24,168 nt of DNA from a virus, in IMG/VR virus record IMGVR_UViG_3300032011_000129, positions 1 through 24,168 of that record; one strand, given 5' to 3'. Positions 3,001-23,119 of the stretch are shown here, one piece after another; position 1 is the first letter of the stretch; the number at the start of each line of letters is the position of its first letter. A model generated the notes under the pieces. That model was not told where the DNA came from and searched no databases. It saw only the letters and a list, made by a program, of their open reading frames with translations. The position numbers and the translations under genes are program-made.

Positions 3001-5186
3001 CTGAAACAATTAAATATAACATTTCATCTAGAGATAATTTTACTGGTGGATTTTCACCAGCAATGGGATACATGGAAGAATCTATTAAAGCTATAGCCAG
3101 TGCTTTAGGTGAAGAAGACTTTGAAGATGCTGCTAAGAAAATAGGTGAGACTGTTCCTATAGTCTCTCAAGCTATAGATGTAGCAGAAAAGTATGCAGTA
3201 GGTGGTGAAGTAGATGTACCTAGAGCAGCACCAGAGCCTGATGAAAGAATAGATAAGATGACAGGCTTACCTTACAACATCCAGGCAGGTATCCCTTTTA
3301 GAGATGAAGAAGACCCTATTAAAAGACTAGGACTTGCAGGTGGAGGCATAACTTCTGATCCTTTACAAAGGTTAAAGTTTGGATTAGGCGGTGGTGTCTA
3401 TAAACTAGGCAAAGCTTTATTGAAAGCTTCAGGAGATGAAGCAGTAGGTGCATTTGAAAGTACAGCGGCTAAGAATCTAGCTAATGCTACCCCTGATGGA
3501 AGTGTAGATGATGTAGCTAAAAGTTTAGACGAAAATCTAACGACTGTTTCATTAGATCAGTTTAAAAAATTAAATAAAGGGCGTGACGCAACGATTGCTG
3601 AGAACATGGATGAGGCAGATATAGCTGCTTGGCAAGAAGCTAATAAACTTCCAGAAAGTAAAAGGCAAAAACAAGAGCCAGAAGTTATTGAATCCTTACA
3701 GAAAGTATTAGCAGGTAAAAAACCTATAAAAAAACATAATAAGTTAGTTGATGAGGAATTTCCTCCATTCTTGTATACAAAAGAAAATGCACCTGAGTTC
3801 CCCACATTAGTAGAGGTTAAAGGGGCTGTAGGTAAGAAAACTTTAACAGGTGGTAGAGGCATTATAGATGCTGATATTTCTGTAGATGAAGGGCGTAGAG
3901 TTTCTTCTAGGCTAGATATACCAGCGTATGATCAAAGAGGTGTCTGGGCTGTAACTTTGCATGAGCCTGGGAAAGGGGGCAAGGCTTTTGCTTATGGACA
4001 ATCTGCTATATTAAAAAATGTGGAGTTTACTACTAATCCAAAAGATGCTTTAGATATTGCAATGGGACAAGCTAAAGGAACTATTGCTCGTATTGAGGGA
4101 AATTGGGTTAATCATAATCCTATAGAAACTTATAGAAGAACTCTGGATTTACTAGATAGTGATGAATGGGTTCAAGTAGGTATGAATCCTTATAAACATT
4201 CTTATTTTTATGACAAAGCAACTATGAAGCCCTTAAAGTCTGCCTCAGAAGTTATACAGGTTGGACCTTTAGTCCTTGCTAAAAAAGATAAAAATTTAAT
4301 ATATGCAAACGCTGATGATTTTAAAGTTGATTTAAGTCCTCAAAGTATAAAAGGTAAGAAGAAACTTAGAGATCAAGAAATAAACATAGACAGTGTTTTT
4401 TTTATGGAAGGAGGCAAGGTACTTAAAGCCTTGGCAAGAAAAAAGTTAGCTACAGGAAGGGAAGTAGATCCTTCTATGTTTCGTGCTGATGGTTCTAGAA
4501 AATCTGCAATAGGATTTCTTGGGCAAATAAAGAATAAGATTACAGGGGGAACCATGACTGAGTTCTCTACTGATATGATGTATAAGGGTAAAAAAATTGA
4601 AATTCCTACGCTGGTTCCTACACAAAGTAAAGAAGCTATAGAGTATATGCAAAACATGGAGCCAGAAAAGGGGTGGAACATGGAAAACCCTATGGATAGA
4701 CAAATAATAAATACGGCTCGTGAACACGCTAAAAGGCGGTTAGATCAAGGCAAGTTTCAATTTTATGTAGATGAAGAAGAACAAAGACTTAATAAAGCTG
4801 AAGGGAGTTCTATAAATCAAAGTAGTTTTAAAAACATAGCGTATGGGGAAATTTCTAAACTTATAGGATTTAAACCAAAACACTTAAAGTTTGCTATAGA
4901 TTCTGATAAAGAATATAGCCTTGAATCTAGACTGCGTGGTACAGGTGATTCTATTAGACACGTTATGTTAGGTGCTGCTGCATACTATTCGGATAATCCA
5001 AAATTGGCTAAAAAAGCTATAGATTTTAGAGATAAGTATTCTTTTGATGATAAAAGAGGTATACGAAAAGATATTGAAAATAATCAAATAGGTTATGATT
5101 TAGCTAAAGAATCTGACTCAATGGAAGAGGTATTAGAGAAAGCTTTATTTTTAAATGAAGCAGGGAAGCTTGGTAAATTTAAATAA
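3..5186 (+). CDS. Giant internal-virion / polyvalent protein, 5' end outside the window
   Basis: The frame is open from base 3 and reads in-frame through the first TTG and ATG codons, so the gene begins upstream and at least 1727 codons are visible. The length and the place just before the lysis genes fit a podovirus-type internal virion protein that is ejected with the DNA (inference). A glycine-rich hydrophobic stretch lies near 880-990 and a long helical region fills 1000-2700. A conserved block with QFLSWTMGKSAQLN lies near 2740-2800. The linker RLGLAGGG (about 3325-3350) separates it from a C-terminal half that looks like several joined domains: one with SRLDIPAY, QVGMNPYKHSYFYD and EVIQVGPLVLAKK (about 3900-4280), resembling domains of phage 'polyvalent' proteins; one with EIPTLVPT (about 4595-4790); and an end domain with DSIRHVMLGAA and ENNQIGYDLA (about 4940-5180), similar to RH..NN..G domains seen in toxins and tail proteins. 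Domain names are from memory. The stop codon overlaps the lysozyme ATG (TAATG). Confidence 0.75.
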   Translation, partial: DPVNIAYAFLPGGMAARAGQFAAYEGGLETLRQTATEGKITDPTAIGVTAAIGGAASLGIDAALRGFSKEAKELIEETSENVVKTETSVGTKVDTVTTPKENLAPVVTQADHVRAWWRKSLQGQPTELSQLRQRAIDGENIPQADFVRAFWRASGAEKGKINADPVLSTVEVKTIQESVASLEKSAKKLSFDELGYQDRLIQVSKVDNILKTLEKRLTNPKYNKTKVQARITELNQYKKKLVTNIDQDGMSLVTSKSDAIFDTIEDLASKNKLSTNIFASLMAEAVRPLVGAAGGGVIGNMFDDDSDHNWMYWGLLGGAGFGHLSRRLNKSAALTDVQKANGDLVINEAYHSLAGRAMAKLKIMTSSTNATKMDAAGGWAKVIGNKLFSRIGTGDAYSLEAKVQRLHSDFFERLNSVVTLPEAKNILEQVGTITEKSMLQLNEANRTVNTVAGEVMRGFTDINSLKAGYKGIAGDLAPLTNNQLITVKEAVSGYKEQLKYVKGLVEDAGISFKDLGEDYGLPQLWNIAKADADYFSFVKDLETAIDIQKRNGGKNLNADNFATNVTTKPAFRDTVQSRRSDFFDRDPETGLTTFRKEAVYFENTRQLTDKAAVKFLAEKGWLKLDAQEVLTEYGLQTIKVAEFAKTFGPNGEVINLAFNRTRDAFKKSAVNLNPKEAQKIASERENYENLIVNGIEAFWGRYGRPLQGEVGQTATTAVRTLQALANMKYLTTVAIANLPDLLQPFINSSFGTAAKVALQKPSKSFAKQGNFKYDNTWERELMNFTSGGMIESRGQAFLANTQDIYFKLVGLKKVTNVARNFAYDVGVNRAYNLAKKTKLSNSELKELKTMGLTKDNLKVIGKHKTVDEAFGDTAGANVFLDIAGRQSADRDAIIPLMGNRLLFTQHHNPFIRSMGQFLSWTMGKSAQLNRLLIRVEDGDARLALKMLAAVPIYAGLREMKGFVNPSAKEDPYEDEDYIDKAFRGLKISGQVNNWAVDKIAETIKYNISSRDNFTGGFSPAMGYMEESIKAIASALGEEDFEDAAKKIGETVPIVSQAIDVAEKYAVGGEVDVPRAAPEPDERIDKMTGLPYNIQAGIPFRDEEDPIKRLGLAGGGITSDPLQRLKFGLGGGVYKLGKALLKASGDEAVGAFESTAAKNLANATPDGSVDDVAKSLDENLTTVSLDQFKKLNKGRDATIAENMDEADIAAWQEANKLPESKRQKQEPEVIESLQKVLAGKKPIKKHNKLVDEEFPPFLYTKENAPEFPTLVEVKGAVGKKTLTGGRGIIDADISVDEGRRVSSRLDIPAYDQRGVWAVTLHEPGKGGKAFAYGQSAILKNVEFTTNPKDALDIAMGQAKGTIARIEGNWVNHNPIETYRRTLDLLDSDEWVQVGMNPYKHSYFYDKATMKPLKSASEVIQVGPLVLAKKDKNLIYANADDFKVDLSPQSIKGKKKLRDQEINIDSVFFMEGGKVLKALARKKLATGREVDPSMFRADGSRKSAIGFLGQIKNKITGGTMTEFSTDMMYKGKKIEIPTLVPTQSKEAIEYMQNMEPEKGWNMENPMDRQIINTAREHAKRRLDQGKFQFYVDEEEQRLNKAEGSSINQSSFKNIAYGEISKLIGFKPKHLKFAIDSDKEYSLESRLRGTGDSIRHVMLGAAAYYSDNPKLAKKAIDFRDKYSFDDKRGIRKDIENNQIGYDLAKESDSMEEVLEKALFLNEAGKLGKFK

Positions 5187-5632
5187 TGAATAAACAAAAC
5201 GTATTTGAACAACTAAAAATAGATGAAGGCATTAAACATGAATGCTATCTATGTTCAGAAGGCGTACCTACCTTTGGTATAGGTCATAAGATATTAGAAT
5301 CAGATCCTGAATATGGTAAGCCCCCAGGAACAGAAGTAGATGAAGATAGAATATGGGAAGTCTTTGAGACTGATCTGGAAATATCTATTAATGAATGTGA
5401 AATAATGTTTGGTAAAAGTATCTGGAGTGGTTTCCCTGATGAAGTAAAAGAAGTCTGCGTAAACATGATGTTTAATCTTGGTAGGCCCAGGTATAGTGGA
5501 TTTTCTAAACATATTGCTGCTTTACAATCTCATAACTGGACTTTAGCAGGGGCTGAAGCTAGAGATAGTAGATGGCATAGACAAGTAGGAGCTAGAGCTG
5601 AACGTCTTTGCCTAAGATTAGAAGCTCTATAA
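5186..5632 (+). CDS. Endolysin, T4-type lysozyme (GH24) with Cys in the catalytic Asp position
   Basis: A 148-aa muramidase that would cut the glycan strands of host peptidoglycan at lysis. The N-terminus aligns closely with T4 lysozyme: the segment FEQLKIDEGIKHECYL matches its first helix and GVPTFGIGH matches its beta-hairpin. The catalytic glutamate is E14 (T4 E11) and the threonine is T29 (T4 T26), but the residue equivalent to Asp20 is C23. Glu-x8-Cys-x5-Thr is a known variant: D20C T4 lysozyme is reported to be active, and some phage endolysins are described with D or C here. The later MMFNLGRPRYSGF and DSRWHRQVGARAERL segments match the C-terminal lobe. There is no signal peptide or N-terminal membrane anchor, so export probably depends on a holin. 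The start is translationally coupled (TAATG) to the upstream virion gene. Family assignment is firm; catalytic competence is inferred. Confidence 0.93.
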   Translation: MNKQNVFEQLKIDEGIKHECYLCSEGVPTFGIGHKILESDPEYGKPPGTEVDEDRIWEVFETDLEISINECEIMFGKSIWSGFPDEVKEVCVNMMFNLGRPRYSGFSKHIAALQSHNWTLAGAEARDSRWHRQVGARAERLCLRLEAL

Positions 5633-5637
5633 TGTAA

Positions 5638-6189
5638 ATGTTTGCTGAACTTGCAGCAATCACCAGTGCTATATCTGCAATCAATAATACTATTTCCACC
5701 TTCAAGGAAGGTAAAGCTAATGCCCAGCAAGCTGCTTCTTTGTTGGGTAAGTTTGGCACGACTGCCCAAAAGCTGGATGATTGGGAAAAGAAGAAAAAAC
5801 TTAAACGCCCTTTAACCCCTAAAGAGGCGATGGATCTCTCTATAAAGCGTAGGGAAATCAAAAACATAGAAAGGAAAATTAAAGACCATCTTATGATGGC
5901 TGGCATGTCAGATGTCTGGAGAGATGCTGAACGCATCCGACAGGAATCAGAAAGAGAGCACCTTCAGTATTTAAAAGATATCCATAAGAAGCGTAAAGAA
6001 AGAAATCGCAAGCTAAAAGAAAGAGCTACTGCTGCTTTCATTATTATTGCTTTGTTGTTTTTATGCTGGTCTGGATGGTTTCTTTACGGAGCCATAAAAG
6101 AATCAAGGATTGAAGCAGCTAAAGAACGTCTAGAACAGTTAAAAGAAAGACAACGCAACATAAGAAAATGCGGCAGACATAGATGTTGA
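5638..6189 (+). CDS. Single-pass membrane protein in the lysis cassette (holin-like role possible)
   Basis: A 183-aa protein with an alanine-rich, helical N-terminus (about residues 1-45), a strongly charged Lys/Glu/Arg helical middle likely to form a coiled coil (50-128), one clear transmembrane segment at about 131-153 (AFIIIALLFLCWSGWFL) and a charged tail. Small proteins starting MFAELAA with this layout recur beside lysozyme genes in marine phages as I remember them, but their function is not established. The position between lysozyme and spanin genes suggests a part in lysis, perhaps as a holin or pinholin, although one distal membrane segment after a long cytoplasmic-looking domain is atypical for a holin. 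It starts 5 nt after the lysozyme stop without a good Shine-Dalgarno sequence, so it probably depends on reinitiation, and it overlaps the next gene by 7 nt. Confidence 0.75.
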   Translation: MFAELAAITSAISAINNTISTFKEGKANAQQAASLLGKFGTTAQKLDDWEKKKKLKRPLTPKEAMDLSIKRREIKNIERKIKDHLMMAGMSDVWRDAERIRQESEREHLQYLKDIHKKRKERNRKLKERATAAFIIIALLFLCWSGWFLYGAIKESRIEAAKERLEQLKERQRNIRKCGRHRC

Positions 6190-7593: not shown

Positions 7594-7887
7594 ATGGCCC
7601 ATGAAGATAGAAAAAAAGCCATGCTTAAAAAGCACAGGCTTAAAGGTGTAAACAAACCTAAAAGAACTCCAGATCATAAAACTAAATCTCACATGGTACT
7701 AGCTCAAGAAGGACATGAGCTAAAGCTTATAAGGTTTGGGCAACAAGGAGTTAGGGGAGCAGGTAAAAATCCTAAGACTGCTAAAGATAAAGCCAGGAAG
7801 AAGTCTTACTATGCTAGACATAATGCTCAAGATGCCAAGCCTTCTAAGATGTCAGCTAGGTACTGGTCACATAAAGTAAAGTGGTGA
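7594..7887 (+). CDS. Small basic protein with KSH..LAQEG / IRFGQQGV motif
   Basis: A 97-aa protein, third of a run of basic proteins (28 Lys/Arg, 7 acidic). It contains KPKRTPDHKTKSHMVLAQEG, KLIRFGQQGVRGAG, KARKKSYYARH and a C-terminal MSARYWSHKVKW. The pattern of a small beta-rich core (KLIRFGQQG) followed by a basic helical tail is one I recognise from many marine phage genomes, where it is a conserved protein of unknown function. It starts 2 nt after the upstream stop codon and probably depends on reinitiation. Being late-operon genes, the three basic proteins are more likely to act in virions or in DNA packaging than in replication (inference). Confidence 0.75.
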   Translation: MAHEDRKKAMLKKHRLKGVNKPKRTPDHKTKSHMVLAQEGHELKLIRFGQQGVRGAGKNPKTAKDKARKKSYYARHNAQDAKPSKMSARYWSHKVKW

Positions 7888-7893
7888 CTGTTT

Positions 7894-8097
7894 ATGATTA
7901 CTACTTTATATCTTATATCACTACAAGTCTGGATTAACTTTGATACCTTTGAAGGCGATTATCAACTAGACGATTGTGCCAAAATAAAAGAGCATATACA
8001 GGAGAACTTTCCTGTTACAGCTACTTGTGTAACTGCCTGGGATGATATTCTAATCCATGATTCAAAAGTCTATATTGATAGTTTACAAATCAAATAA
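7894..8097 (+). CDS. Small two-cysteine protein at the end of the late operon
   Basis: A 67-aa protein of unknown function. It begins with a short hydrophobic stretch (MITTLYLISLQVWI), then an acidic segment and two cysteines in QLDDCAKIKEHI and VTATCVTAW. The layout (hydrophobic start, C, helix, then VTAxCV) resembles that of the protein at 6183-6398, so the two may be distant relatives. It starts 6 nt after the upstream stop and has no convincing ribosome binding site. It is the last plus-strand gene before the convergent junction; only 34 nt separate its stop from the stop of the first minus-strand gene, and I see no clear hairpin terminator there. Confidence 0.6.
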   Translation: MITTLYLISLQVWINFDTFEGDYQLDDCAKIKEHIQENFPVTATCVTAWDDILIHDSKVYIDSLQIK

Positions 8098-8131
8098 CCA
8101 GCAATAAACCCTAGACAGAAAGCAAGCTCCA

Positions 8132-8386
8132 TTAATCCTTGTAAGCCTCATTCTTTTCAGTAGCAGGATCATCAGGAATAAATCTACCAAATTTATCTCT
8201 TGCTCTTTTTTTTATGTCAGTTACTTTTTCACCAGCTTTTTCTTTAACTTCTTCAAGTCCCTCAGACACAGTATTCTTTACTTCTTCTACTACATCTTCT
8301 GTTTTTTTCTTAACATATTTTCCTGATGCATTAAAAGTATGCTCAGACTCAGCAAATAAGTTTTTAAACCAGTTTAGTATAGACAT
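8132..8386 (-). CDS. Amphipathic helical protein with DKFGRFIPDDPATEKNEAY tail
   Basis: An 84-aa protein and the last gene of the leftward operon. After a hydrophobic start (MSILNWFKNLF) it is an uninterrupted, strongly charged heptad-like helix (about residues 22-65, EEVKNTVSEGLEEVKEKAGEK) similar in texture to YtxH or apolipophorin-like proteins. It ends in a conserved-looking tail, KFGRFIPDDPATEKNEAY, which I recall from other marine phage proteins of unknown function. A clear AGGAG ribosome binding site precedes the ATG. No catalytic or metal-binding motif is visible. A structural, DNA-associated or membrane-associated role cannot be decided from sequence. Confidence 0.7.
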   Translation of the reverse strand: MSILNWFKNLFAESEHTFNASGKYVKKKTEDVVEEVKNTVSEGLEEVKEKAGEKVTDIKKRARDKFGRFIPDDPATEKNEAYKD

Positions 8387-8410
8387 CGTTTTCTCCTGTG
8401 TGTAATATCA

Positions 8411-8611
8411 TTATTCCCCTATCTTTTTATTCAAATCTAATTTGTGCTTAACAGGCTCTGAGATAGGGGGTTTACTTTCCCCATAGTATACAAACACCAA
8501 TGCATTGCACTTGGGACAAGAAAGGTTTGTCATCATGGCGTGATCATCGTCATCTTCAAGATCCTGATCACCACCCCAGATAAGTTCAGTTTTACAGACC
8601 CAGCAATTCAT
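8411..8611 (-). CDS. Small zinc-ribbon protein
   Basis: A 66-aa protein with two CxxC knuckles (CWVC near residue 3 and CPKC near residue 32) separated by an acidic loop (GGDQDLEDDDDHAMM), consistent with a single zinc ribbon. Such small ribbons in phages may bind nucleic acid or act as adaptors on host RNA polymerase, but nothing here identifies the partner. The ATG at 8611 is chosen over the one at 8617 because it overlaps the upstream nuclease stop as ATGA, a coupling used repeatedly in this operon, and because MNCW is the usual start of related proteins as I remember them. Confidence 0.75.
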   Translation of the reverse strand: MNCWVCKTELIWGGDQDLEDDDDHAMMTNLSCPKCNALVFVYYGESKPPISEPVKHKLDLNKKIGE

Positions 8612-9795: not shown

Positions 9796-10070
9796 TAACC
9801 TCTGCCTGTTTGTTGACAATAATTTTTTACATCTAATAATGATATAGATTCTAGTGGTTTAGTTTTAAGAAGTCTTTTTAATATAGACTTCATTCCTTTA
9901 CTAGACATAGCGATAGCATAATAGTAAGAATTATTGTTGGCATACTCTGTTTTAGATATAGAGTTTTTAGTTACTTTGGCCCCTTCTTCATCTGATAAGT
10001 TTTCTTTTAACAGAGCCATACAATATTCTTCTGCTGTTCTATTTAGTTTTTTCATTAGCTTGGCATTCAT
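9795..10070 (-). CDS. Conserved small protein between the RecB-like nuclease and endonuclease I
   Basis: A 91-aa protein of unknown function, mostly helical and moderately basic (NAKLMKKLNRTAEEYCMALLKENLSDEEGAKV, then SKGMKSILKRLLKTKPLESISLLDVKNYC split by a YANNNSYYYAIAM segment). No catalytic motif is visible. It is linked tightly to both flanking nucleases: its ATG overlaps the upstream nuclease stop (ATGA) and its own stop overlaps the endonuclease I start (TAATG). That points to co-translation and possibly to a role with one of these enzymes, for example as a modulator; this is inference only. Confidence 0.75.
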   Translation of the reverse strand: MNAKLMKKLNRTAEEYCMALLKENLSDEEGAKVTKNSISKTEYANNNSYYYAIAMSSKGMKSILKRLLKTKPLESISLLDVKNYCQQTGRG

Positions 10071-10921
10071 AGTAAAGCCACCTCATCTACTTTAGGTAAA
10101 ACTGCAACTCTGGTTAAATACTTTAGACCATTAGAGTATCTAAATGCTCTTAGTCCCTGGCCTCCATTGCTATCCTGCCAACAATCATGTTTGTGAGCGC
10201 AGTACACACAACCAACAGCTAACTTCATATTGCCTGATTTACCTTCAGCTACAGGCTGATAACACAATGCAGGGGGATCGTCTTTAGTTATAGCTTCTTT
10301 GATTTTTTCAATCTTGACTCTGGCATTAGGCTTAACCAGTTCTCCTGGTTCATAAGTAGTAAGCTCTCCTGTCTCTTTATTGATAGCAAGAAAGCCTCCT
10401 CTGGTGGTTTCTTCAGCAGTCTCATACGCAGACAACTGCATAAGGTAACCAAATGTATCGCTCTCATGCAAAGAATTATCAGCAAACTTCTTGAATGCAA
10501 AGTTAGAAGCAGTCTTAATATCCACTACTTCACCATTTATCTTGCAGTCAATGTGTCCTTTGATACCATCCAGAGACACTTCTTTCTGCTCATCAGTTAC
10601 TTTGTTGTCTGTCATTCGTAATAACATTAGAACTATTTCTTCTAAGAGATGACCATACAAAAACTTAATGAAAGTCTGTGGAGTTATTCTAGAAGGGAAG
10701 CTATTAGTCTTTCTACTATCAAACCAGAGCTGCCTTAGAGGTTTTCCTATGTTAGACATCCTGATAGTAAACTCATTAGAAGGTTGAGGAGAAGCCCAAT
10801 GCTTAATAACTTCTTTAATTGCTTCACCTGTCTGTTCTATAGCTTCATCTGATAAATCAATAGCTCCATCATTCAGTTTATCTAGTTTGTTGTAGATGGA
10901 TTTCACTATAAGGTTGTCCAT
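10067..10921 (-). CDS. RecB/Cas4-like PD-(D/E)XK exonuclease
   Basis: A 284-aa nuclease of the PD-(D/E)XK superfamily. The conserved pieces are GHLLEE (H91), GHIDCKI (D125), GEVVDIKTAS (D134 and K136) and the YLMQLSAY (Q162) motif typical of RecB and Cas4-type nucleases. Near the C-terminus CYQP (C220) and CVYCAHKHDCW (C238, C241, C247) give four cysteines that could hold an iron-sulphur cluster or zinc. In Cas4/AddB-type enzymes one ligand normally lies N-terminal to the nuclease core; here all four are C-terminal. The likely role is the exonuclease for host DNA degradation and recombination, replacing T7 gp6. The ATG at 10921 is preferred (GGGA upstream), but one at 10933 is possible; either overlaps the preceding zinc-finger gene. 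Confidence 0.85.
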   Translation of the reverse strand: MDNLIVKSIYNKLDKLNDGAIDLSDEAIEQTGEAIKEVIKHWASPQPSNEFTIRMSNIGKPLRQLWFDSRKTNSFPSRITPQTFIKFLYGHLLEEIVLMLLRMTDNKVTDEQKEVSLDGIKGHIDCKINGEVVDIKTASNFAFKKFADNSLHESDTFGYLMQLSAYETAEETTRGGFLAINKETGELTTYEPGELVKPNARVKIEKIKEAITKDDPPALCYQPVAEGKSGNMKLAVGCVYCAHKHDCWQDSNGGQGLRAFRYSNGLKYLTRVAVLPKVDEVALL

Positions 10922-11123
10922 AATTGATCCCATTGTTGTTTGTGGTTTTCCAGTAGAGACTTAATAATTTCTGATTAACAAGTCCTATGTAATAGTCTTG
11001 ATTCTGAGGAGAAAATTTCATATGTCTTTTACAACTGTTACAAAAATGTTTTTCTTTCCTGGTAAAATTTTTTGGTATTGTAGTTTTACACTTAATACAT
11101 GGAGTATGTTTAAATAGATTCAT
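10878..11123 (-). CDS. Small treble-clef-like zinc-finger protein
   Basis: An 81-aa protein with CIKCKTTIPKNF (CxxC) and, 15 residues later, CNSCKRHM (CxxC), a spacing that suits one zinc site of an HNH-like or treble-clef finger. The rest of an HNH motif (a His-Asn-His set) is not evident, so it is more likely a DNA-binding or adaptor protein than an active nuclease. The ATG overlaps the polymerase stop (TAATG), which supports that it is a real gene. Its 3' end overlaps the RecB-like nuclease gene by 44 nt. Confidence 0.65.
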   Translation of the reverse strand: MNLFKHTPCIKCKTTIPKNFTRKEKHFCNSCKRHMKFSPQNQDYYIGLVNQKLLSLYWKTTNNNGINYGQPYSEIHLQQTR

Positions 11124-12895
11124 TAGTGTGTCTCGCTCCAGTTATTACCTACATTGTATTCACCAGTAAGAGGACAATTAAGTTCTAAAGAGTTACCTGC
11201 TTGTTCAATAGCAAGCACTCCTAGATTACCTACTTGATTAGCTATGGTACACTCAGCTTCTATCTGCCATTCATCATGGACATTAGCAACAAAGTGAGTG
11301 TCATAAAGAGATAGGCTATTATTCAATATAACCAACGCTTCTTTCATAACGATAGCACCTGCACCCTGCAACAAAGTATTCAAAGCACTATGCTCACTCC
11401 TTACTCCAAGCTTTCTGCCATCAAGTCCTTTTAGATATCCATTTTTTTGGAACGCTCTTGATACTCTATTTCTAAGATCTGCAAATGCAGGGAGATTATC
11501 GAAGAAAGATTTTCTAAGTCTCGTTCCAGTTTCTTTGTTTCCTCCAGCCACACTCCCAAGCTTTTCATCTCCTGCTCCATACAAGAGTGCATAGATGAAT
11601 GTCTTTGCCTGATCTCTAGATTCAAGTCCTGCAAGGTGCTGGTTAGCTGTGTGTATGTCTCCTGATATGATTTCATTAGTGTAATCCTTATCATTCATGT
11701 AGTGAGCTAACATCCTTAACTCAAGTCCTGAAGCATCAATACCTACTAACTTATAATTAGAAGGCACTCTCCATAAACCTCTAAAGTCTCTACCATAAGG
11801 AGCCTTAACACTAGGCACTTGTGCCATGTTTGGTTTCCTGTGAGTCATACGTCCTGTCACAGTTCCATTGTGTATGACATGACTGTGTACTCTAAATGTT
11901 GAAGGGTTAGCCTCCTCTATCCAAGAGTTAAGCTGCGCTATGCGCTTCTCTAACAGGAAATAATGCTTAATTAGTTTAGCTTCTGGGATATCTGTGACAG
12001 TCTCTAATACTTTCTCATTCAGTATTGCTCTGCCTTTATCAGTAAACTTAGTAGGCTTCCATCCAAACTCCTGCAAGTATTCAATGAGCTGAATCCTGCT
12101 AGATACATTTACCTCTTTAACTTCAGTCCTGACAACATGATCTTTATCAGTCTGCTGCATCTCAAGATACTCATCATCAGTTAGCCTAGTGCCTCCACCA
12201 CATTCAGATACAGCGTTTCTTGCTACGCTGCCATCCTTTTTGTACTTAGGATACAGCTTAGTCTCTATGATCTTAGGCTTGAAGACTTCCTTGATACTAT
12301 TCTCAGTCTTGATGATGTCTTTCTGAAGCTCACTCTGAATACCAGAAGCCTTATCGAAGTCCAGTAAGAAGCCATGTCTCTCTTGTTCACCTAATATCTC
12401 AGCGACACTATGCTCAAGATCAATACATTTTCTACTGTATCCTCTAGCTTCTTCTCGTAGCTCATGGAATACCCTGGTGTTCAGCTCTACATCTCTAATG
12501 CAATACTTCAGCATCTGCATAGAGTAGTGACTGTAATCATCAAACTCTATCTTTGGATAACGTAGTAAGGTTCCCCAATCAGCTAGTCTGTGTCCTGGCT
12601 TCCTGTCTGGACTACATAATCTGGAAAGAACTAATGTATCCAGTATCTCTTTACCTTTAGCAAAGTCAGGATAGTCCAGTATCTTTTTTACACAAGGTAT
12701 GTCAAAGGTCAGAATGTTATGTCCTATTAAGGTATCTGCAGTATTAAGTAATGCTACAGCTTCATGTAGTTCATTAGGACCAAAGGATTCTATCTCCTCA
12801 GTATCTGCATTCTGAACTACAATGCACCATATCTTTGTATACTTAACACCATCAGTTTCTACATCGAATACCATTCTTAATTTATCGTCACTCAT
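11123..12895 (-). CDS. Family A DNA polymerase, T7 gp5-like, with 3'-5' exonuclease
   Basis: A 590-aa replicative polymerase. The N-terminal 3'-5' proofreading domain is intact: Exo I FDVETDG (D11, E13), Exo II GHNILTFD (D65) and Exo III YCIRDVE (Y131, D135). The polymerase domain has motif A GIDASGLELR (D387), motif B RDQAKTFIYALLYGAGDEK (K431, Y435) and motif C NVHDEW (H540, D541, E542). Motif B is almost identical to that of T7. The residue matching E. coli Pol I F762 is Tyr (Y435), a form that surveys of viral polymerases link with lytic phages. At 590 aa it is shorter than T7 gp5 (704 aa), and the segment around 200-330 is where the thioredoxin-binding region of T7 would be expected; thioredoxin dependence cannot be judged by eye. 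It overlaps the primase-helicase by ATGA. Confidence 0.97.
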   Translation of the reverse strand: MSDDKLRMVFDVETDGVKYTKIWCIVVQNADTEEIESFGPNELHEAVALLNTADTLIGHNILTFDIPCVKKILDYPDFAKGKEILDTLVLSRLCSPDRKPGHRLADWGTLLRYPKIEFDDYSHYSMQMLKYCIRDVELNTRVFHELREEARGYSRKCIDLEHSVAEILGEQERHGFLLDFDKASGIQSELQKDIIKTENSIKEVFKPKIIETKLYPKYKKDGSVARNAVSECGGGTRLTDDEYLEMQQTDKDHVVRTEVKEVNVSSRIQLIEYLQEFGWKPTKFTDKGRAILNEKVLETVTDIPEAKLIKHYFLLEKRIAQLNSWIEEANPSTFRVHSHVIHNGTVTGRMTHRKPNMAQVPSVKAPYGRDFRGLWRVPSNYKLVGIDASGLELRMLAHYMNDKDYTNEIISGDIHTANQHLAGLESRDQAKTFIYALLYGAGDEKLGSVAGGNKETGTRLRKSFFDNLPAFADLRNRVSRAFQKNGYLKGLDGRKLGVRSEHSALNTLLQGAGAIVMKEALVILNNSLSLYDTHFVANVHDEWQIEAECTIANQVGNLGVLAIEQAGNSLELNCPLTGEYNVGNNWSETH

Positions 12896-14595
12896 AAGAT
12901 AGTCTCCTCAGTAATTTCCATATCGCTCAGATCTAACTCAGTCAATCTACCTGTTACTGTGTCGTAGATAATAGAACCTGCATCTCCTACCTCACCAGAG
13001 TATCTGTTCTTGAGGACTCTTAGCTTAGTTGTTCTAGCTTCACTTTCATCTTCTGCCTGTTGGTTTCTTTCAAGACCAATAACAGAATCAGCTATCTGAG
13101 CTATTACATGAGAGCCTCTAAGGTGACTAAGGTTTATCTCAGCTCCATTCTCATGCCCCTTGTTACCATCAAGTCTTCTTAGGTGAGAGACAGTAACAAT
13201 AGAGATATCAAGTTCTTCACATAGCTCTCTGAACTTATGCATGATCTTGTTGATCTCTGAAGTTTCGTTCTCTCCTCCTGCAGCACTGATCATGTGAATG
13301 TGATCAATAAAGATCCACTTACATTCTGAACCTGCTGCCATGAACTTTACTCTATCTGCAATAGCATTTAGATTGTTCTCGCCAACGTGTTCATAGACCC
13401 ATACTCTGTTCTTATTGTCTCCTTCAAACAAAGCATCATGCCATTCTGAAAGTCTAGCTACATCGTAAGTATCTCTCACACTGTCCTTGGATAAACGCTC
13501 ATTAGCTTCAATAGACATCAAGCCATCAATGGTGCGTTCATAGCTTTCTTCAAGCATGACGATACCAATGTTGTCTTGAGTATTCTGTAGTAGCCAATGC
13601 TGTAGTTCACGACAGACTGCACTCTTACCTAACCCTGTACCAGCAGTAAGCACTGTCACCTCACCTTGGCGTAGTCCCTCAAGCTTTTCATTAAGTCCCT
13701 TCCAAGGGAAAGGTACAGATAGTTTAGTAGGTCTTTCCAGATACCTTCCTTTGTTATCGCTGACTGATACAAGTCCACTAGGCGTGTATGTTTTAGCTGA
13801 GTACCAAGCATCCATAAATGCCTTTTGTTCTCCTGCCATCAACATCTCATTAGCATCATTGTATTCAGAAGGAAGGCTGACTATCTTTGTCTTACCTGTC
13901 TGTAGAAGTCTGGCTACTTTCTCTGTAGCTTTCCTTCCTGGCTCATCCATATCGAAACAAAGCACTACGTTCTCAAAGCTATAAAGATACTCTAGGTTCT
14001 TTCTAACAGCTCTTTCTGCATCTGAAGAGGACTTCACTCCTATTGCAGGAAAGTTAGTACCTTTAGCATTCAGCATTTGATAACCAGACATAGCATCTAT
14101 CTCACCTTCAAAGAGAGTGATGTATCTCTGTCCTTCTTCAAAGAGCTGCTTACCAAAGAGATCTACTTTAGAAGAACCATCAGTCCATACAAACTGAAAG
14201 GGTTCGTTATTTCTTTTCTTTATAACATCCCTTATCTTTATGACTTCTTCTTCACCATTGTAGTAAGGATAGTAATGTTTAATGTCATTACCTTGATCAT
14301 CTCTAACTACTCTGACGTTGAACTTCTTTACGACAGGAAGCTGTAAGCAGCGAGATTCAATAGCACAAATCTCACCACCTGTAGGCTTAACTATCTTGGA
14401 AGGTTTAGACTGTCGAGGAGCAGGAACAATGTCCTCACCCCCTTCTCTAGCCTTGTTATATTGAGCAGGACTCCATGAAGTTTCACAAGCAAAGCAATGT
14501 GCGCTTCCGTTCTTGTACTCAGTAAGAGCATCACTACTGCCGCATTGTTCATTGATACAAGGTATGTGCTGGCGTTTATAGACGTTATCATCCAT
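12892..14595 (-). CDS. Bifunctional primase-helicase, T7 gp4 / Twinkle type
   Basis: A 567-aa protein that would unwind duplex DNA 5' to 3' and prime lagging-strand synthesis. In order: a zinc-binding domain with C13, C18, C34 and C37; a TOPRIM primase domain with FEGEIDAMS (E163/E165) and VLCFDMDEPGR (D215/D217); and a RecA-like hexameric helicase domain with Walker A GTGLGKSA (319-326), a MLEES motif (about 347), Walker B WIFIDHIHMI and VSHLRR downstream. The length matches full-length T7 gp4 (566 aa). A good ribosome site (AGGAG, about 7 nt spacing) precedes the ATG. Placed directly before the polymerase and after the single-strand binding protein, it completes a T7-like replisome. Confidence 0.97.
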   Translation of the reverse strand: MDDNVYKRQHIPCINEQCGSSDALTEYKNGSAHCFACETSWSPAQYNKAREGGEDIVPAPRQSKPSKIVKPTGGEICAIESRCLQLPVVKKFNVRVVRDDQGNDIKHYYPYYNGEEEVIKIRDVIKKRNNEPFQFVWTDGSSKVDLFGKQLFEEGQRYITLFEGEIDAMSGYQMLNAKGTNFPAIGVKSSSDAERAVRKNLEYLYSFENVVLCFDMDEPGRKATEKVARLLQTGKTKIVSLPSEYNDANEMLMAGEQKAFMDAWYSAKTYTPSGLVSVSDNKGRYLERPTKLSVPFPWKGLNEKLEGLRQGEVTVLTAGTGLGKSAVCRELQHWLLQNTQDNIGIVMLEESYERTIDGLMSIEANERLSKDSVRDTYDVARLSEWHDALFEGDNKNRVWVYEHVGENNLNAIADRVKFMAAGSECKWIFIDHIHMISAAGGENETSEINKIMHKFRELCEELDISIVTVSHLRRLDGNKGHENGAEINLSHLRGSHVIAQIADSVIGLERNQQAEDESEARTTKLRVLKNRYSGEVGDAGSIIYDTVTGRLTELDLSDMEITEETIL

Positions 14596-15747: not shown

Positions 15748-16692
15748 TTATGCTGCTTGTAATAAAGTACAGGCTTTTCTTACGTTGTCTCTTCTGTCAA
15801 TCCTGGTAGAAGCAATGTTCTTCTTGCTGTTTTCAGTGTTGCCATCAGCGTGAGTAGACCAGTGGGTCATGGCATTGTATACAGCCCAATGGTTACACCC
15901 TAAAACAGGTGCTTCTTTGCTGATGTATTGATTCCAAAGGAACTTGATATCCTTTGTCTTACCATCTTGATACTTCTTAGAAGCAAGTATCTCATTGAGA
16001 CTCATCAATGGATCAACATCGAACTTAGCTGCTTTAGCCAATATCTTGAAAGCTTCAAAGTTGCTGACTGATTGTCCTTTCCAGTTAGCCCATCTCTCCT
16101 TTTCTCTTTCATAGGTAGAGATAGCTGAAGCTACCATGCGAGATCCTCTGTCAGGATTAAGACTCTTGGTATGCTTAGAGGTGTAGATACACAATGGATC
16201 TAACATCACCTGTCCATTGGTACACGCCATGCGAACAGCACCTGTCTCAATAGTGAAACACCAAGAGCCATCGTAACTGTTTCTATGTAGGATCTGAAGC
16301 ATTGTCTCATCACCATTGCCCACATCAAACATATGTGCAGGAAGGTCATACTGAACAAGGTATCTGCCACCATCATGAGAAGTAGAGAACTTCCTACTTA
16401 TTCCAGTAAGGTCCAGCCCAGAATTAAGAAGCATATTCTCAACAGTTGATACACACTCTATGGGTTGGTGTCCTAGCTTGAACTTAGTACCTACAACATT
16501 AACCAGCTCATTGTTTCTGGTATTGTAGATAACACGTTTCTTGTCATCAGTTTTGATTTGATTGTTGGATATATCAAAGTGTAATTCAGACTCAGCAAAG
16601 TGAGGTAACACACCATCTAAACTATCTAACTTATCTAGGTGTATTTGATTTTGGTTTCTTGAAGGGTTTAATGCGTGGATGTTGTTAGTCAT
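15748..16692 (-). CDS. DUF932 protein
   Basis: A 314-aa protein of the DUF932 family, which is common on phages and plasmids. Family-like segments are NNELVNVVGTKFKLGHQPIE near residue 65, SHDGGRYLVQYDLPAH, GSWCFTIETGAVRMACTNGQ near residue 145-165 and SKHTKSLNPDRGSRM. The biochemical role of DUF932 is not established; expression early in infection or in replication is suggested by its location. The ATG has an AGGAA site. Upstream lies a 312-nt non-coding gap with inverted repeats, the only sizeable gap within this half of the operon, so a promoter serving DUF932 through to the replisome genes is plausible. Confidence 0.87.
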   Translation of the reverse strand: MTNNIHALNPSRNQNQIHLDKLDSLDGVLPHFAESELHFDISNNQIKTDDKKRVIYNTRNNELVNVVGTKFKLGHQPIECVSTVENMLLNSGLDLTGISRKFSTSHDGGRYLVQYDLPAHMFDVGNGDETMLQILHRNSYDGSWCFTIETGAVRMACTNGQVMLDPLCIYTSKHTKSLNPDRGSRMVASAISTYEREKERWANWKGQSVSNFEAFKILAKAAKFDVDPLMSLNEILASKKYQDGKTKDIKFLWNQYISKEAPVLGCNHWAVYNAMTHWSTHADGNTENSKKNIASTRIDRRDNVRKACTLLQAA

Positions 16693-18476: not shown

Positions 18477-19142
18477 TTACGCCACGTTTCTGGCAGGGAT
18501 CAGGTTCTTATCTTTGTAGACCTTCTTCATTCGTCTACCATGTGAAGGATAAGCAATGACTGATACACTCTTATCCCAACAAGCCCGACAGGTATCACAC
18601 TTGCCACCTCTATCATAGGCTTCGCACAGTGTCATCCTAGATGTAATATCTTCTGGATGTTGAACAATGGTACTGGTGGTTTTGCCTTTAATGATTCCAC
18701 CAGTGATACTGTCACTTGAATACCTAACAACTACATTAGGTAGTGCTTGCATCTTCTTGAAAATAAACGAATACTTTTTGAACTTATGGGATCTAGTAGG
18801 CATCCAGTGTTTGCACCAAGGTGTACGTTGCATCACTTGAAAGATCTTTTGTGCTAGTCCTACACAATAGACATCCCCACTATCAAACCATCTGAAGTAT
18901 CTGGAGTTGTCTAACTCTGCTACCATGTCATCTACCCATGCATCACGCTTCCAATCCTGCTTGTTGTGATCTCTGATAGCTTTAACATTTTTGAAATTGT
19001 AGTTGCCATCAGTCGCATAGCATCCTTTACATGGATCGACTAGCTCTTTTGTTTTAAGATCTATGCTTCCTGGACAGGTGGTTCTTGCCTGTAAAGACCA
19101 TGATTTGCAAGGCATCTTCCCTGCATTACTTAGTTTTAACAT
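18477..19142 (-). CDS. GP88-family cysteine-rich protein
   Basis: A 221-aa protein matching, as I recall it, the phage 'gene product 88' family of unknown function. Characteristic parts are GKMPCKSWSLQA (C12), TTCPGSIDL (C23), PCKGCYATDGNY (C38, C41), then FRWFDSGDVYC, TPWCKHWMPTRSHKF, VRYSSDSITGG and a terminal cysteine cluster TLCEAYDRGGKCDTCRACW (CxxCxxC). The many conserved cysteines suggest an iron-sulphur or zinc site, and the CxxCxxC resembles a 4Fe-4S ligand set. The order 'Cys-rich motif, RWFDSGD, HW.PTR, SSDS' hints at an enzyme, perhaps one acting on nucleotides or DNA, but no reaction is known. The ATG has an AAGGAA ribosome site. Confidence 0.8.
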   Translation of the reverse strand: MLKLSNAGKMPCKSWSLQARTTCPGSIDLKTKELVDPCKGCYATDGNYNFKNVKAIRDHNKQDWKRDAWVDDMVAELDNSRYFRWFDSGDVYCVGLAQKIFQVMQRTPWCKHWMPTRSHKFKKYSFIFKKMQALPNVVVRYSSDSITGGIIKGKTTSTIVQHPEDITSRMTLCEAYDRGGKCDTCRACWDKSVSVIAYPSHGRRMKKVYKDKNLIPARNVA

Positions 19143-19163
19143 AGCTTGTTGTTCCTTGTTGGG

Positions 19164-20017: not shown

Positions 20018-20097
20018 GGGTAGGACGTAGATCCTGCGTGGTTCTCTGGCAGTTATCCAATATGGAATATCTCTTTATTACTACGTTGATCCTACCC
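20018..20097 (-). repeat. Long inverted repeat covering the GIY-YIG stop codon
   Basis: Arm GGGTAGGACGTAG (20018-20030) is complementary to CTACGTTGATCCTACCC (20081-20097), except for a 4-nt bulge, giving 13 base pairs around a 50-nt loop. The GIY-YIG stop codon lies in one arm, so the structure would form at the 3' end of that mRNA. On the minus strand the sequence after the stem is pyrimidine-rich (CGCCTTTCATTTTT), so it might act as an imperfect terminator or protect the transcript end. Confidence 0.55.
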
Positions 20098-20695
20098 TGT
20101 TAAAAATGAATGTGTTTCTAATGCTTTCTATAAAGCTCATATTATCAGGTTCATAATAATCTAATGGATTACGCATAAAATCATAAAAGTTATGTCCATT
20201 TATATTTTTATTTTTTATCCACATTTTTTTCGCTATTTTCCGCATTTGTGGAGTAAGACGTTTATTACGAACAGCATCGAAAAATGATCGCTGTCCTTTT
20301 TGAATAAGCATTATTAATGAATCCATATCTTTTATTATTTTGTTGTCGCCCTTATTTTCTATAAAGTAAAGATGATAAAGCTTAGTTAGTTCGCTTCTGT
20401 CATCATTTTCATAAATTATTCTGTCGTAATTCTTCTCAATATCTTTTTGTTTTTTAGCTCTACCCTGCACGTTATACCTGGGTTTTTCTTCTTTGATTGC
20501 TCTTGATTCTGCAGTCAAAGCTTCCTCTCTTGTGTCGTAATGCTCAGTTTTTAGCGTTGTCATTTCTTTAAACCAACAAGATTGTCCTTTGTGGCCCTGC
20601 ATACGATTCATTACTGAACATGATATACCAATATAAAGCAGTTCGTTGCTCTGATTAAATGCTCTGTATAAAGTAGTAAATCCTGCCCTGTACAT
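20081..20695 (-). CDS. GIY-YIG family nuclease, probably free-standing homing endonuclease
   Basis: A 204-aa protein with an N-terminal GIY-YIG domain: LYRAF (Y10 in the GIY position), ELLYIGIS (Y21-I22-G23), NRMQGH (R31, H35) and AESRAIKEEKPRYN (metal-binding E63, N75). These are the catalytic residues of the fold. Residues 80-204 form a separate Lys/Asn-rich domain (KKMWIKNKNINGHNFYDFM) likely to bind DNA; it matches no family I know. Codons are more AT-rich than in most neighbours, as with many mobile endonucleases. The gene is flanked by structured sequence on both sides and has an unusually strong ribosome site. No split exons are evident, so it looks like a free-standing selfish nuclease rather than an intron ORF. 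A replication or repair role is the alternative. Confidence 0.88.
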   Translation of the reverse strand: MYRAGFTTLYRAFNQSNELLYIGISCSVMNRMQGHKGQSCWFKEMTTLKTEHYDTREEALTAESRAIKEEKPRYNVQGRAKKQKDIEKNYDRIIYENDDRSELTKLYHLYFIENKGDNKIIKDMDSLIMLIQKGQRSFFDAVRNKRLTPQMRKIAKKMWIKNKNINGHNFYDFMRNPLDYYEPDNMSFIESIRNTFIFNRVGST

Positions 20696-21410: not shown

Positions 21411-21574
21411 TTCATTATGCTGTAATAGCTTGCTCTCGCAAATTCGCTTTATTATTGCGGCCTTTCCTTATTTAGTAGGTATCTACCAGTGACAGGGGTC
21501 AACCAACACTAGAATCATGGCTGTTCACATCCCAAATAAACTAGGGTATGCATTCATTCGCACTATGTAGCTAG

Positions 21575-21628
21575 TAAGATTCCTTATCCTCTTAAAAACT
21601 TCAGCAATTAAGATTCCTTATCCTCTTA
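21575..21628. repeat. Perfect 20-bp direct repeat, two copies
   Basis: TAAGATTCCTTATCCTCTTA occurs at 21575-21594 and again at 21609-21628, 34 bp apart start to start. Each copy has inverted ends, TAAGA and TCTTA, so each may be a site for a dimeric protein. Confidence 0.85.
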
Positions 21629-21791
21629 TAGCCTACGAACTACACCTATTGATTGGGCCTTTATAGGTACGCCCTTTTAACCTTACTCATTCCTGATAGT
21701 TACTAGATCTAAAGGTGGTAGCTCTATCAGCCGGTTAATATGTCTTAACTTGGAAACCATTAAACCAGTTAAAAATTGAGATGTTGTGAAA

Positions 21792-21822
21792 GAATAATGG
21801 ACTGGTATGGAGGAATAATGGA
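21792..21822. repeat. GAATAATGGA direct repeat, 21-bp period
   Basis: The 10-mer GAATAATGGA occurs at 21792-21801 and 21813-21822, on the same face of the helix (two turns apart). It may be a short binding-site pair. Confidence 0.6.
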
Positions 21823-21927
21823 AAGAAAGTGAATTAGGGAGATCTCTTTTAATTAATATTAGATATAAGATATTAAAAAAGTTTCTTAAATCGGCTCAAA
21901 TTGCGTCTAATGGGATTTTTTTCAGAT

Positions 21928-21997
21928 CAAGAATTTTGAATATATTTAAAGTTTAAAACTATCTAAATTCTTGAAATGATAGATAAAAGCTATCTAT
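21928..21997. repeat. Two adjacent inverted repeats
   Basis: CAAGAATTT (21928-21936) pairs with AAATTCTTG (21965-21973) over a 28-nt loop. Next to it ATAGATA (21979-21985) pairs with TATCTAT (21991-21997) over a 5-nt loop. Neither is followed by a T-run, so they are not obvious terminators. Confidence 0.6.
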
Positions 21998-22023
21998 TGG
22001 GAGTGTGAGAAAATAATATTTTA

Positions 22024-22184
22024 AGTGAGTGCTTACTAACTTATAGATTGTCAATATTGAGAAAAAATGTAAGTAAGCGTTCACTAACTAAATTTTCAAT
22101 TGGTCATTTTTCAATATGTAAGTAAGTATTCACTAACAAAAATTAAAAATTTATAAAAATTAAAAATAGTGAGGACTTACTAAC
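22024..22184. repeat. Four dyad-like 17-bp repeats at 47-49-bp spacing
   Basis: Copies matching AGTRAGNRYTYACTAAC (one further mismatch is allowed in the centre) start at 22024, 22072, 22121 and 22168. The first 14 positions (AGTRAG...ACT) read similarly on both strands, so each is an imperfect palindrome. Flanks are partly shared too: copies 2 and 4 are followed by AAATTTT, copies 2 and 3 are preceded by ATGTA or TATGTA. The regular spacing points to an array bound by one protein. Confidence 0.8.
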
Positions 22185-22201
22185 CAAATTTTGAATAGGG
22201 T

Positions 22202-22250
22202 CAACAGGGTAGGCAGGAGGCCATGCCACCCCCCCTATATATATAAATGC
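22202..22250. other. GC-rich hairpin and C-run next to a TA-run
   Basis: Within very AT-rich DNA, a short GC-rich patch contains GGCA (22212-22215) that can pair with TGCC (22224-22227) and outer GGGT/ACCC-like ends, then seven Cs followed by TATATATATA. Such a contrast is seen at unwinding elements and at some packaging sites; there is no direct evidence for either here. Confidence 0.45.
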
Positions 22251-22289
22251 AATATCATACATTTTCAGAGATTTTGAGTTGTCAATATA

Positions 22290-22309
22290 AGGGGAAACAA
22301 ATGACCCCC
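22290..22309. repeat. Small GC-rich hairpin
   Basis: AGGGG (22290-22294) pairs with CCCCT (near 22305-22309) across a 10-nt loop. No T-run follows on either strand. Confidence 0.45.
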
Positions 22310-22363
22310 TAATACCCCTACTCTACAACAGATATATTAAAAAATCTGGGAGCGCAATAGGTA

Positions 22364-22441
22364 ACATAGTTAACCTATGTAAATAGGAAGGGGAACGAAA
22401 TAGGGAAAATATTTAGAATAGTGAGAAAATAGTTAAACTAT
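22364..22441. repeat. Two palindromic sites related to the AGTTTAACT motif
   Basis: ACATAG-TTAAC-CTATGT (22364-22380) has perfect 6-bp arms; ATAGTT-A-AACTAT (22429-22441) has perfect 6-bp arms around one base and contains the reverse complement of AGTTTAACT. Both share AACTATG/CATAGTT ends with the inverted repeat upstream of DUF932. Confidence 0.7.
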
Positions 22442-22490
22442 GTTAAAACTAATTATAAATAATTATTTATAAATTATTGTTTTATTGTGT

Positions 22491-22550
22491 TTAAAACAGT
22501 TTAACGATTTTAAAAACAGTTTAACTATTTAAATACCAGTTTAACTAAGT
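22491..22550 (+). repeat. CAGTTTAAC array, three copies with an exact 20-bp period
   Basis: CAGTTTAAC begins at 22497, 22517 and 22537, preceded by an A-rich hexamer each time (TTAAAA, TAAAAA, AAATAC). It ends about 120 bp before the small terminase start, where an activator or repressor of late transcription could bind. A T/A-rich stretch with TATATT-like hexamers follows at 22560-22585. Confidence 0.85.
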
Positions 22551-22672
22551 AACCTATTTAGAATATTGTATAGCTTATATTAAACATAAGCAAGACTTTG
22601 TGTTATTTGTTTTCTTGTGGTAGGTTCTATTGAGTCACTTTAACCATTACTGGTACGTTTATTCATTTGCCT

Positions 22673-23119
22673 ATGTCAGACATCACACAATACATACCTG
22701 ATAGAAACAGAAAAAGAGAATACACAGAGAAACAACAAAGCTTTCTTGATAATCTTGTTTCAGCAGGAGGTGATGCCAAGATAGCAGCAGACTTAGCAGG
22801 GTACGCCCCAGGAGTCTATCCTCAGGTAGTAAGAGCCTTAAAAGAAGAAATCATAGAGCTGGCTTCAGAGATATTAGCACAATCAGCTCCTAAGGCTGCT
22901 ATGAAGCTCGTAGAGGTCATGGAAGCTGATGCCCCTATCCCACAGTCAAATGTTAAAGTTCAGGCCGCACAGACGATTCTAGACCGCATAGGGCTTGGAA
23001 AAGCAGATAGGGTAGACGTTAATCATAATATATCAGACAATACAGGGGCATTATTCATTCTTCCTGCAAAGAAACCATCAACAGTAGATGCTGATTATGA
23101 TGAGATTTCCAAAGACTAA
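22673..23119 (+). CDS. terS: Terminase small subunit
   Basis: A 148-aa protein that would recognise phage DNA and hand it to the large terminase subunit. The N-terminal half has a helix-turn-helix pattern (KQQSFLDNLVSAGGDAKIAADLAGYAPG), followed by an amphipathic oligomerisation helix (KEEIIELASEILAQSAPKAAMKLVEVM) and a C-terminal VDVNHNISDNTGALFILPAKK segment that is common in phage small terminases. The ATG at 22673 is chosen; a TTG six bases upstream is the longer alternative. No Shine-Dalgarno sequence is visible before either, so translation may be leaderless or weak. It overlaps the large subunit by 23 nt. Confidence 0.88.
   Translation: MSDITQYIPDRNRKREYTEKQQSFLDNLVSAGGDAKIAADLAGYAPGVYPQVVRALKEEIIELASEILAQSAPKAAMKLVEVMEADAPIPQSNVKVQAAQTILDRIGLGKADRVDVNHNISDNTGALFILPAKKPSTVDADYDEISKD

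Follow-up and report, generated by a model that had tools for sequence, protein, structure and literature searches.

The gene at positions 18477 to 19142 of the window, the 24,168-base virus record analysed here, raises the question of what a GP88 protein does. This minus-strand gene encodes 221 amino acids. Its ATG start is at 19142, a Shine-Dalgarno-like AAGGA can be read from the sequence 10 bases 5' of it (19153–19157, minus strand), and the plus strand of 18477–19142 contains stops throughout. The first-pass annotation had given exactly these coordinates without the strand, and its assignment to the GP88 family is borne out by a match to PF17338 (E 6.5e-30, 105.1 bits against a curated cut-off of 24.4). 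Its remark that the family has no assigned function also holds, since a function for GP88 is named nowhere in the searched libraries. The window protein falls in a PHROG annotated as unknown function, its baseplate and zinc-finger Pfam matches (E 0.012 and 0.73) are under the cut-offs, and among the titles and abstract openings of a mostly non-subscription literature no functional study of GP88 or of DUF5131, a family considered below, was found. From the open reading frame, Pfam, conservation and a predicted model, the protein is a candidate two-cluster radical-SAM-type enzyme. The probability that GP88 is a compact enzyme of this type, one that would contain iron-sulfur, bind SAM and carry out radical chemistry, is put at roughly two in three, a figure that covers the type of enzyme and not its substrate.

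The setting of the gene was read from family matches. Downstream of GP88 and on the same strand are genes for a DUF932 protein (15748–16692), a Toprim/DnaB primase-helicase (12892–14595), a family A polymerase (11123–12895) and a Cas4-domain exonuclease (10067–10933), and a GIY-YIG endonuclease gene (20081–20695) lies upstream. The earlier description of a gene beside replication genes corresponds to a distance of about 4 kb, GP88 being upstream of the primase-helicase and polymerase. A stretch of about 1.2 kb (21493–22666) without any ORF of 60 aa separates the early block from a small-terminase-like gene (22667–23119, a weak PHROG match) and may contain control sequences or an origin. At 30–5186, an ORF of 1718 aa, whose sole PHROG match is short and weak (phrog_586, residues 1303–1410), precedes one endolysin-like and two spanin-like genes. 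The whole window gave zero matches to phages at the DNA level, and a plasmid search for GP88 gave zero as well.

A first search for relatives returned 14 IMG/VR loci and 16 phage records, all 16 of the latter annotated as hypothetical. In two alignment-based scans of IMG/VR, at least 576 of 600 and at least 593 of 600 candidate stretches were confirmed to encode a GP88 relative, the two sets possibly overlapping, and 80 loci were retained from each. GP88 was also confirmed in 7 of 78 candidate bacterial genome contigs, and a query with the mycophage type of GP88 matched 264 phage records. Conservation was counted over 188 aligned rows, 177 of them distinct, with the copy of the window (L015) dropped; contig ends cut two of the rows, L158 lacking the N-terminus and L014 the C-terminus. 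A further GP88 alignment, A3, omits sequences shorter than 180 aa, those reaching 80% identity and seven phage-record rows that were kept in the 188. An open frame in a MAG contig (L099, 5241–8708) fuses a CheA-like protein, recognised by eye, to GP88; it was judged a probable assembly chimera, and only its GP88 part entered A3.

The cysteines of the window protein are C12, C23, C38, C41, C93, C110, C173, C182, C185 and C188, from which the first-pass annotation had omitted C93 and C110. C38, C41, C173, C182, C185 and C188 are each Cys in 187/188 rows, the lone exception being a contig-end gap. The upstream Cys of the N-terminal triad occupies alignment column 23 in only 100/188 rows because the loop varies in length. 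Counted by spacing, CX13-15CX2CYA is present in 182/188 rows (13 residues in 171, 14 in 11), and a Cys followed by 12–22 residues and CX2CYA is present in every row except the cut L158 (187/188). The metal-site reading had been made to depend on conserved cysteines, and seven of those in the window protein, C23/C38/C41 and C173/C182/C185/C188, are conserved. The proposal fails for C12, which is Cys in only 71/188 rows and was ruled out as a metal-site ligand on that ground; C110 (55/188) and C93 (3/188) are likewise not conserved. The triad C23-x14-C38-x2-C41 (19020–19076, minus strand) is, from its conservation, a putative SAM-binding [4Fe-4S] site, and C173-x8-C182-x2-C185-x2-C188 (18579–18626, minus strand) is a candidate for an auxiliary [4Fe-4S] cluster or for zinc.

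Conservation extends well beyond the cysteines. R84, W85, D87, G89, D90, W113 and S142 are unchanged in 188/188 rows, and T116, N136 and H201 (187/188 each), H112 (186/188) and Y198 are nearly so. This pattern persists down to 31% identity and is therefore far beyond chance. Of the RWFDSGD and HWMPTR motifs picked out earlier, RWxDxGD and HWxPT are thus invariant or close to it, and within SSDS only S142 is, with S143, D144 and S145 kept in 112/188, 93/188 and 84/188 rows. On the minus strand, R84-W-F-D-S-G-D90 (18873–18893) stands where predicted strand 2 ends, and its D90 aligns with a conserved DUF5131 Asp. H112-W-M-P-T-R117 (18792–18809) falls in predicted strand 3; its alignment partners are T-K in DUF5131 and T-K-S in spore photoproduct lyase (SPL). 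N136-x5-S142 (18717–18737), in predicted strand 4, recurs as N-x5-S in DUF5131, in GP88 of the mycophage type and in most sequences of SPL. A regular expression for the window-type template matches 184/188 rows; the misses are the cut L014 and L158, L051 (N136 to Ser) and L145 (R140 to Val).

Cysteines conserved in this way could also build two structural zinc sites, one from the triad together with H201 or H112 and one from the four Cys near the C-terminus. The protein would then bind nucleic acids or resemble a nuclease, and be free of radical chemistry. Both histidines are conserved well enough to complete a C3H site, and weak Pfam matches to zf-P11 (6/73 members, best E 0.034) and zf-CXXC (5/73, best E 0.033) point the same way. 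The triad persists, however, without the C-terminal cluster in mycophage-type GP88 (68/68 rows) and in DUF5131 (66/66 rows holding the region, 10/76 being gapped at the triad), where it lies at the radical-SAM cluster loop, and the best structural matches are radical-SAM enzymes. Two zinc sites are on balance an unlikely explanation.

The AlphaFold2 model of GP88, calculated from 73 sequences, has a pLDDT of 94 and a pTM of 0.90. Its elements run β1 – Cys loop – α – β2 – α – β3 – α – β4 – β5 – Cys cluster – β6 – α, and this predicted order is compatible with a partial (β/α) barrel having the cluster loop after strand 1. VIA-align was run on the 1000 best chains from Foldseek, with a Z of 8 as the safe level of the tool. 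Ranks 1–7 of the 50 matches listed are radical-SAM structures representing five different proteins (Z 5.0–6.0). EpeE accounts for three of the matches (best Z 6.0, 5.0 Å over 154), and others are lysine aminomutase (Z 5.9), QueE (5.5), BtrN (5.0, 3.9 Å over 134) and 7bi7 (5.0), which we take to be NifB. By title or known identity, 15 of the 50 matches listed are radical-SAM, the first other fold appearing at Z 4.9. The structural matches of the model are thus consistent with a radical-SAM fold but weak, with Z at or below 6.0 and under the safe 8. Foldseek found nothing in the PDB for the GP88 model at E ≤ 1e-3; against viral models it gave 19 matches at that threshold, the named ones being GP88, DUF7227 or Gp37/Gp68-like.

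The comparison with radical-SAM and ferredoxin folds suggested by the first-pass annotation makes the former the likelier of the two. No ferredoxin-like fold was recognised among the 50 matches listed by Foldseek against the PDB or the 50 listed by VIA-align, and the Fer4_13 Pfam model matches 2/73 GP88 members at a best E of 1.4. The annotation had also weighed a fold with no shared metal site against its reading, and the predicted fold could hold one.

Profile comparison was used to trace kinship. The GP88 and DUF5131 profiles score 38.4 together, which 0/100 column shuffles reach (maximum 23.2). Against mycophage-type GP88 the score is 29.5, with no shuffle of 100 above 22.9. Two unrelated TIM-barrel families score 16.4 and 13.2 against GP88; the two controls, DHDPS and GDPD, reach 23.8 between themselves, a gauge of the score attainable by chance. 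In addition, two strong DUF5131 members (G021:C113 and G044:C12) score above the cut-off of the Pfam GP88 model, and the coordinates place these matches in the same frame. Judged by these profiles, GP88 is a homologue of DUF5131 (Gp37/Gp68) and of mycophage-type GP88. It is a family separate from DUF5131, whose Pfam model has no match listed for the window protein and matches 11/73 relatives weakly (best E 0.0032).

The link from window-type GP88 to radical-SAM profiles is less direct. Against the SPL profile it scores 15.4, with 28/100 shuffles as good, against the rsam profile 17.8, with 10/100 as good, and against queE_Cx14CxxC 13.9 in hhalign at a probability of 0.1; rsam and queE14 are small profiles, drawn from 17/18 and 8/12 loci. 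Mycophage GP88 scores 29.9 against SPL, above all 100 shuffles (maximum 23.0), and DUF5131 scores 26.5, again above all 100 (maximum 23.2); the true-positive control of rSAM against SPL gives 30.6 (shuffle maximum 24.2). The DUF5131 score is modest because the unrelated TIM-barrel controls reach 23.8. DUF5131 is marginal against rsam (23.6, 1/100 shuffles as good) and negative against queE14 (19.1). Sequence searches of the PDB with the window protein, A3 and a further alignment, A4, drawn from 54 of 80 loci, gave nothing credible. Since GP88 itself matches neither the SPL nor the rsam profile, its assignment rests on a chain of links by way of DUF5131 and mycophage GP88, together with the fold. 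Thus, by sequence profiles GP88 is no proven radical-SAM member, and most likely works like one.

The structural end of this chain is firmer for the sister family. The DUF5131 model, from 54 sequences, has a pLDDT of 89 and matches six entries of spore photoproduct lyase at Z 13.5–13.7 (3.5–3.6 Å over 205–207 residues), followed by RlmN (about 10–11), viperins (about 9–11) and lipoyl synthase (about 9–10). Of its first 45 matches, 44 are, by title or known identity, radical-SAM enzymes, with several entries sharing one protein. Foldseek ranked UV damage endonuclease first for this model (E 4.4e-4), an order that disagrees with the ranking by Z-score. Taken together, the seven conserved cysteines, the radical-SAM structural matches and the homology to DUF5131, with its SPL match at Z 13.7, support the earlier view of GP88 as a metal-cluster enzyme rather than a structural protein.

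A common motif template, comprising three cysteines, D, T-K/R and N-x5-S in the same order, is found in GP88, mycophage GP88, DUF5131 and SPL. Column counts were used to compare it, the motif regular expression matching 26/76 DUF5131 and 66/68 mycophage GP88 rows. The Asp is D90 in GP88 (188/188) and D136 in mycophage GP88 (68/68), and is present in 75/76 DUF5131 and 30/30 SPL rows; D90 was equated with the SPL Asp by way of DUF5131 and mycophage GP88. The Thr, T116 in GP88, is kept in 67/68 mycophage GP88, 75/76 DUF5131 and 30/30 SPL rows. The Asn is present in 187/188, 67/68, 73/76 and 22/30 rows of the four families, respectively, and the Ser in 188/188, 68/68, 69/76 (with Thr in the other 7) and 26/30 (with Thr in 4). 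The residue after the Thr is Lys in 67/68 mycophage GP88, 76/76 DUF5131 and 30/30 SPL rows, and in the 188 GP88 rows it is R in 143, Q in 36, K in 8 and H in 1.

This replacement of the SPL-type Lys by Arg or Gln in most GP88 rows speaks for a degenerate radical-SAM fold, in which the iron-sulfur cluster would be only structural or would sense redox state or iron and so regulate early infection. The lack of a constant partner gene in the loci surveyed (below) would also suit such a protein. Against this, D90, T116, N136 and S142 are near-invariant across very different phages, an unusual pattern if the role were purely structural, and a degenerate fold is considered very unlikely.

Among 189 loci, GP88 is the only family present in more than 91, within flanks of at most about 6–10 kb and often shorter. 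A primase-helicase is present in 53/189 loci and a polymerase in 36/189, and where present they are downstream of GP88 on the same strand; both families include the genes of the window itself. A family that by eye resembles large terminase is found in 91/189 loci, upstream of GP88 and on the other strand.

Bacterial loci offer a different picture, in which GP88 might serve in defence or counter-defence, with SAM-radical chemistry aimed at a molecule of the host or of a rival phage. Two of the six bacterial loci read, L103 and L520, lie among defence genes, these two being the ones scanned for families. In L103 (3131–15703, a bacterial contig), GP88 at 7884–8582 is flanked by genes for a CAP12/Pycsar-type TIR protein, a DUF6884 protein (PDC-M57A-like) and LmuB/SMC-like ATPases, and the region looks like a defence island. 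In L520 (7811–15693, from a 9.5 Mb bacterial contig), a mycophage-type GP88 and a type I restriction-modification operon (MTase, specificity and REase) are divergent and about 0.5 kb apart; a PrimPol-like gene is also present in L520, at 3875–6145. Moreover, the two DUF5131 proteins tested match the PADLOC candidate models PDC-M41B and PDC-M30B. The window protein and two other GP88s, on the other hand, match no PADLOC model, the ORF lists of bacterial loci L104, L517, L518 and L519 hold no defence gene by eye, and in phage loci GP88 sits in the replication-gene block. A role in defence is considered unlikely, although the bacterial loci and the PADLOC matches lend it some weight.

In the preferred reading of GP88 as a radical-SAM-type enzyme, a non-canonical, partial (β/α)6 barrel would carry a SAM-binding [4Fe-4S] cluster on C23/C38/C41 in the loop after strand 1, and the open iron of this cluster would hold SAM. 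The SAM pocket would be formed in the style of SPL by D90 after strand 2, T116-R117 after strand 3 and S142 where strand 4 ends. C173/C182/C185/C188, located between strands 5 and 6, would bind a second cluster in place of one barrel helix, with a possible part in electron transfer or substrate binding. Reduction would cleave SAM to give a 5'-deoxyadenosyl radical, which early in infection would act on a substrate at the level of DNA or nucleotides.

That the substrate is DNA or a nucleotide is a tentative guess by analogy, made from the kinship to SPL and from the early-region position of the gene. The earlier pointer to nucleotide or host-takeover chemistry agrees with that position, and the nearest solved relative of DUF5131 acts on DNA; as to substrate it stays a guess. 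A bolder proposal, and a long shot, is that GP88, mycophage GP88 and DUF5131 form a phage-centred radical-SAM branch next to SPL that repairs or edits viral DNA bases, with the second cluster having replaced the H-donor Cys in the window clade. The protein, of about 210 residues, might then be a light-independent photolesion-reversing or base-modifying enzyme of sunlit aquatic phages.

If the reading of GP88 is true, a widespread family of unknown function would gain its first testable job. Both GP88 and DUF5131 are abundant viral families, and placement beside SPL would turn a "hypothetical protein" into a claim on cofactor, chemistry and catalytic residues. Should the substrate be DNA, a new class of viral DNA repair or modification would be at hand.

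Compared with known systems, GP88 shares its CX14CX2C spacing with QueE, for which the accessible part of the source describes such a loop and a minimal β6/α3 core (PMC4389238). The model also reaches Z 5.5 to E. coli QueE in VIA-align. Unlike QueE of the Cx14CxxC type (TIGR04508), GP88 has an extra four-Cys cluster and shows no profile similarity to it; with no NCBIfam match and the hhalign probability given above, identity with QueE was rejected. Canonical radical-SAM enzymes differ in having CX3CX2C where GP88 has CX13-14CX2C, and an aromatic residue before the last Cys where in GP88 it comes after. Their GGE presumably stands where GP88 has DSGD.

SPL (PF20903) resembles GP88 in its Cys triad, conserved Asp and Thr and N-x5-[ST], all in the same order, and differs in its CX3CX2C and in the second cluster of GP88. 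SPL C90 would lie opposite DUF5131 C21, judging from the offset of the match ranges. Apart from C140/C141 and the tyrosines, the SPL residues named here are those generally known or those aligned. The H-donor Cys of SPL is C141 in the Bs and C140 in the Gt enzyme, as given in the parts of the sources consulted (PMC3742179, PMC5368176). Beyond the seven cluster cysteines, the 188 GP88 rows contain no conserved Cys that could correspond to it, and GP88 is therefore no SPL, though it may share the SPL mode of action.

DUF5131, or phage Gp37-Gp68 (PF07505), has C..CY, D, T-K and N-x5-S in register with GP88 and a similar predicted barrel; it differs in its CX6CX2C, fuller barrel and GGES motif. 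CxxCxxC occurs somewhere in 5/76 DUF5131 rows, and the family is presumably linked to the "three-Cys-motif partner". The mycophage gene 88 type of GP88, covered by the same Pfam model as the window type, shares with it the Cys triad, R-x5-D, T-[KR] and N-x5-S in the same order, and differs in having CX6CX3C (in L381) and an invariant VIDGDEHD (68/68 rows from viral loci), a motif not seen in the window protein. The four-Cys group with CxxCxxC is present in 187/188 window-type, 0/68 mycophage-type and 0/30 SPL rows. Since mycophage-type GP88 lacks this C-terminal cluster, the triad would be the core common to the families and the second cluster an addition to it; radical-SAM families usually show a conserved core triad and an optional second cluster.
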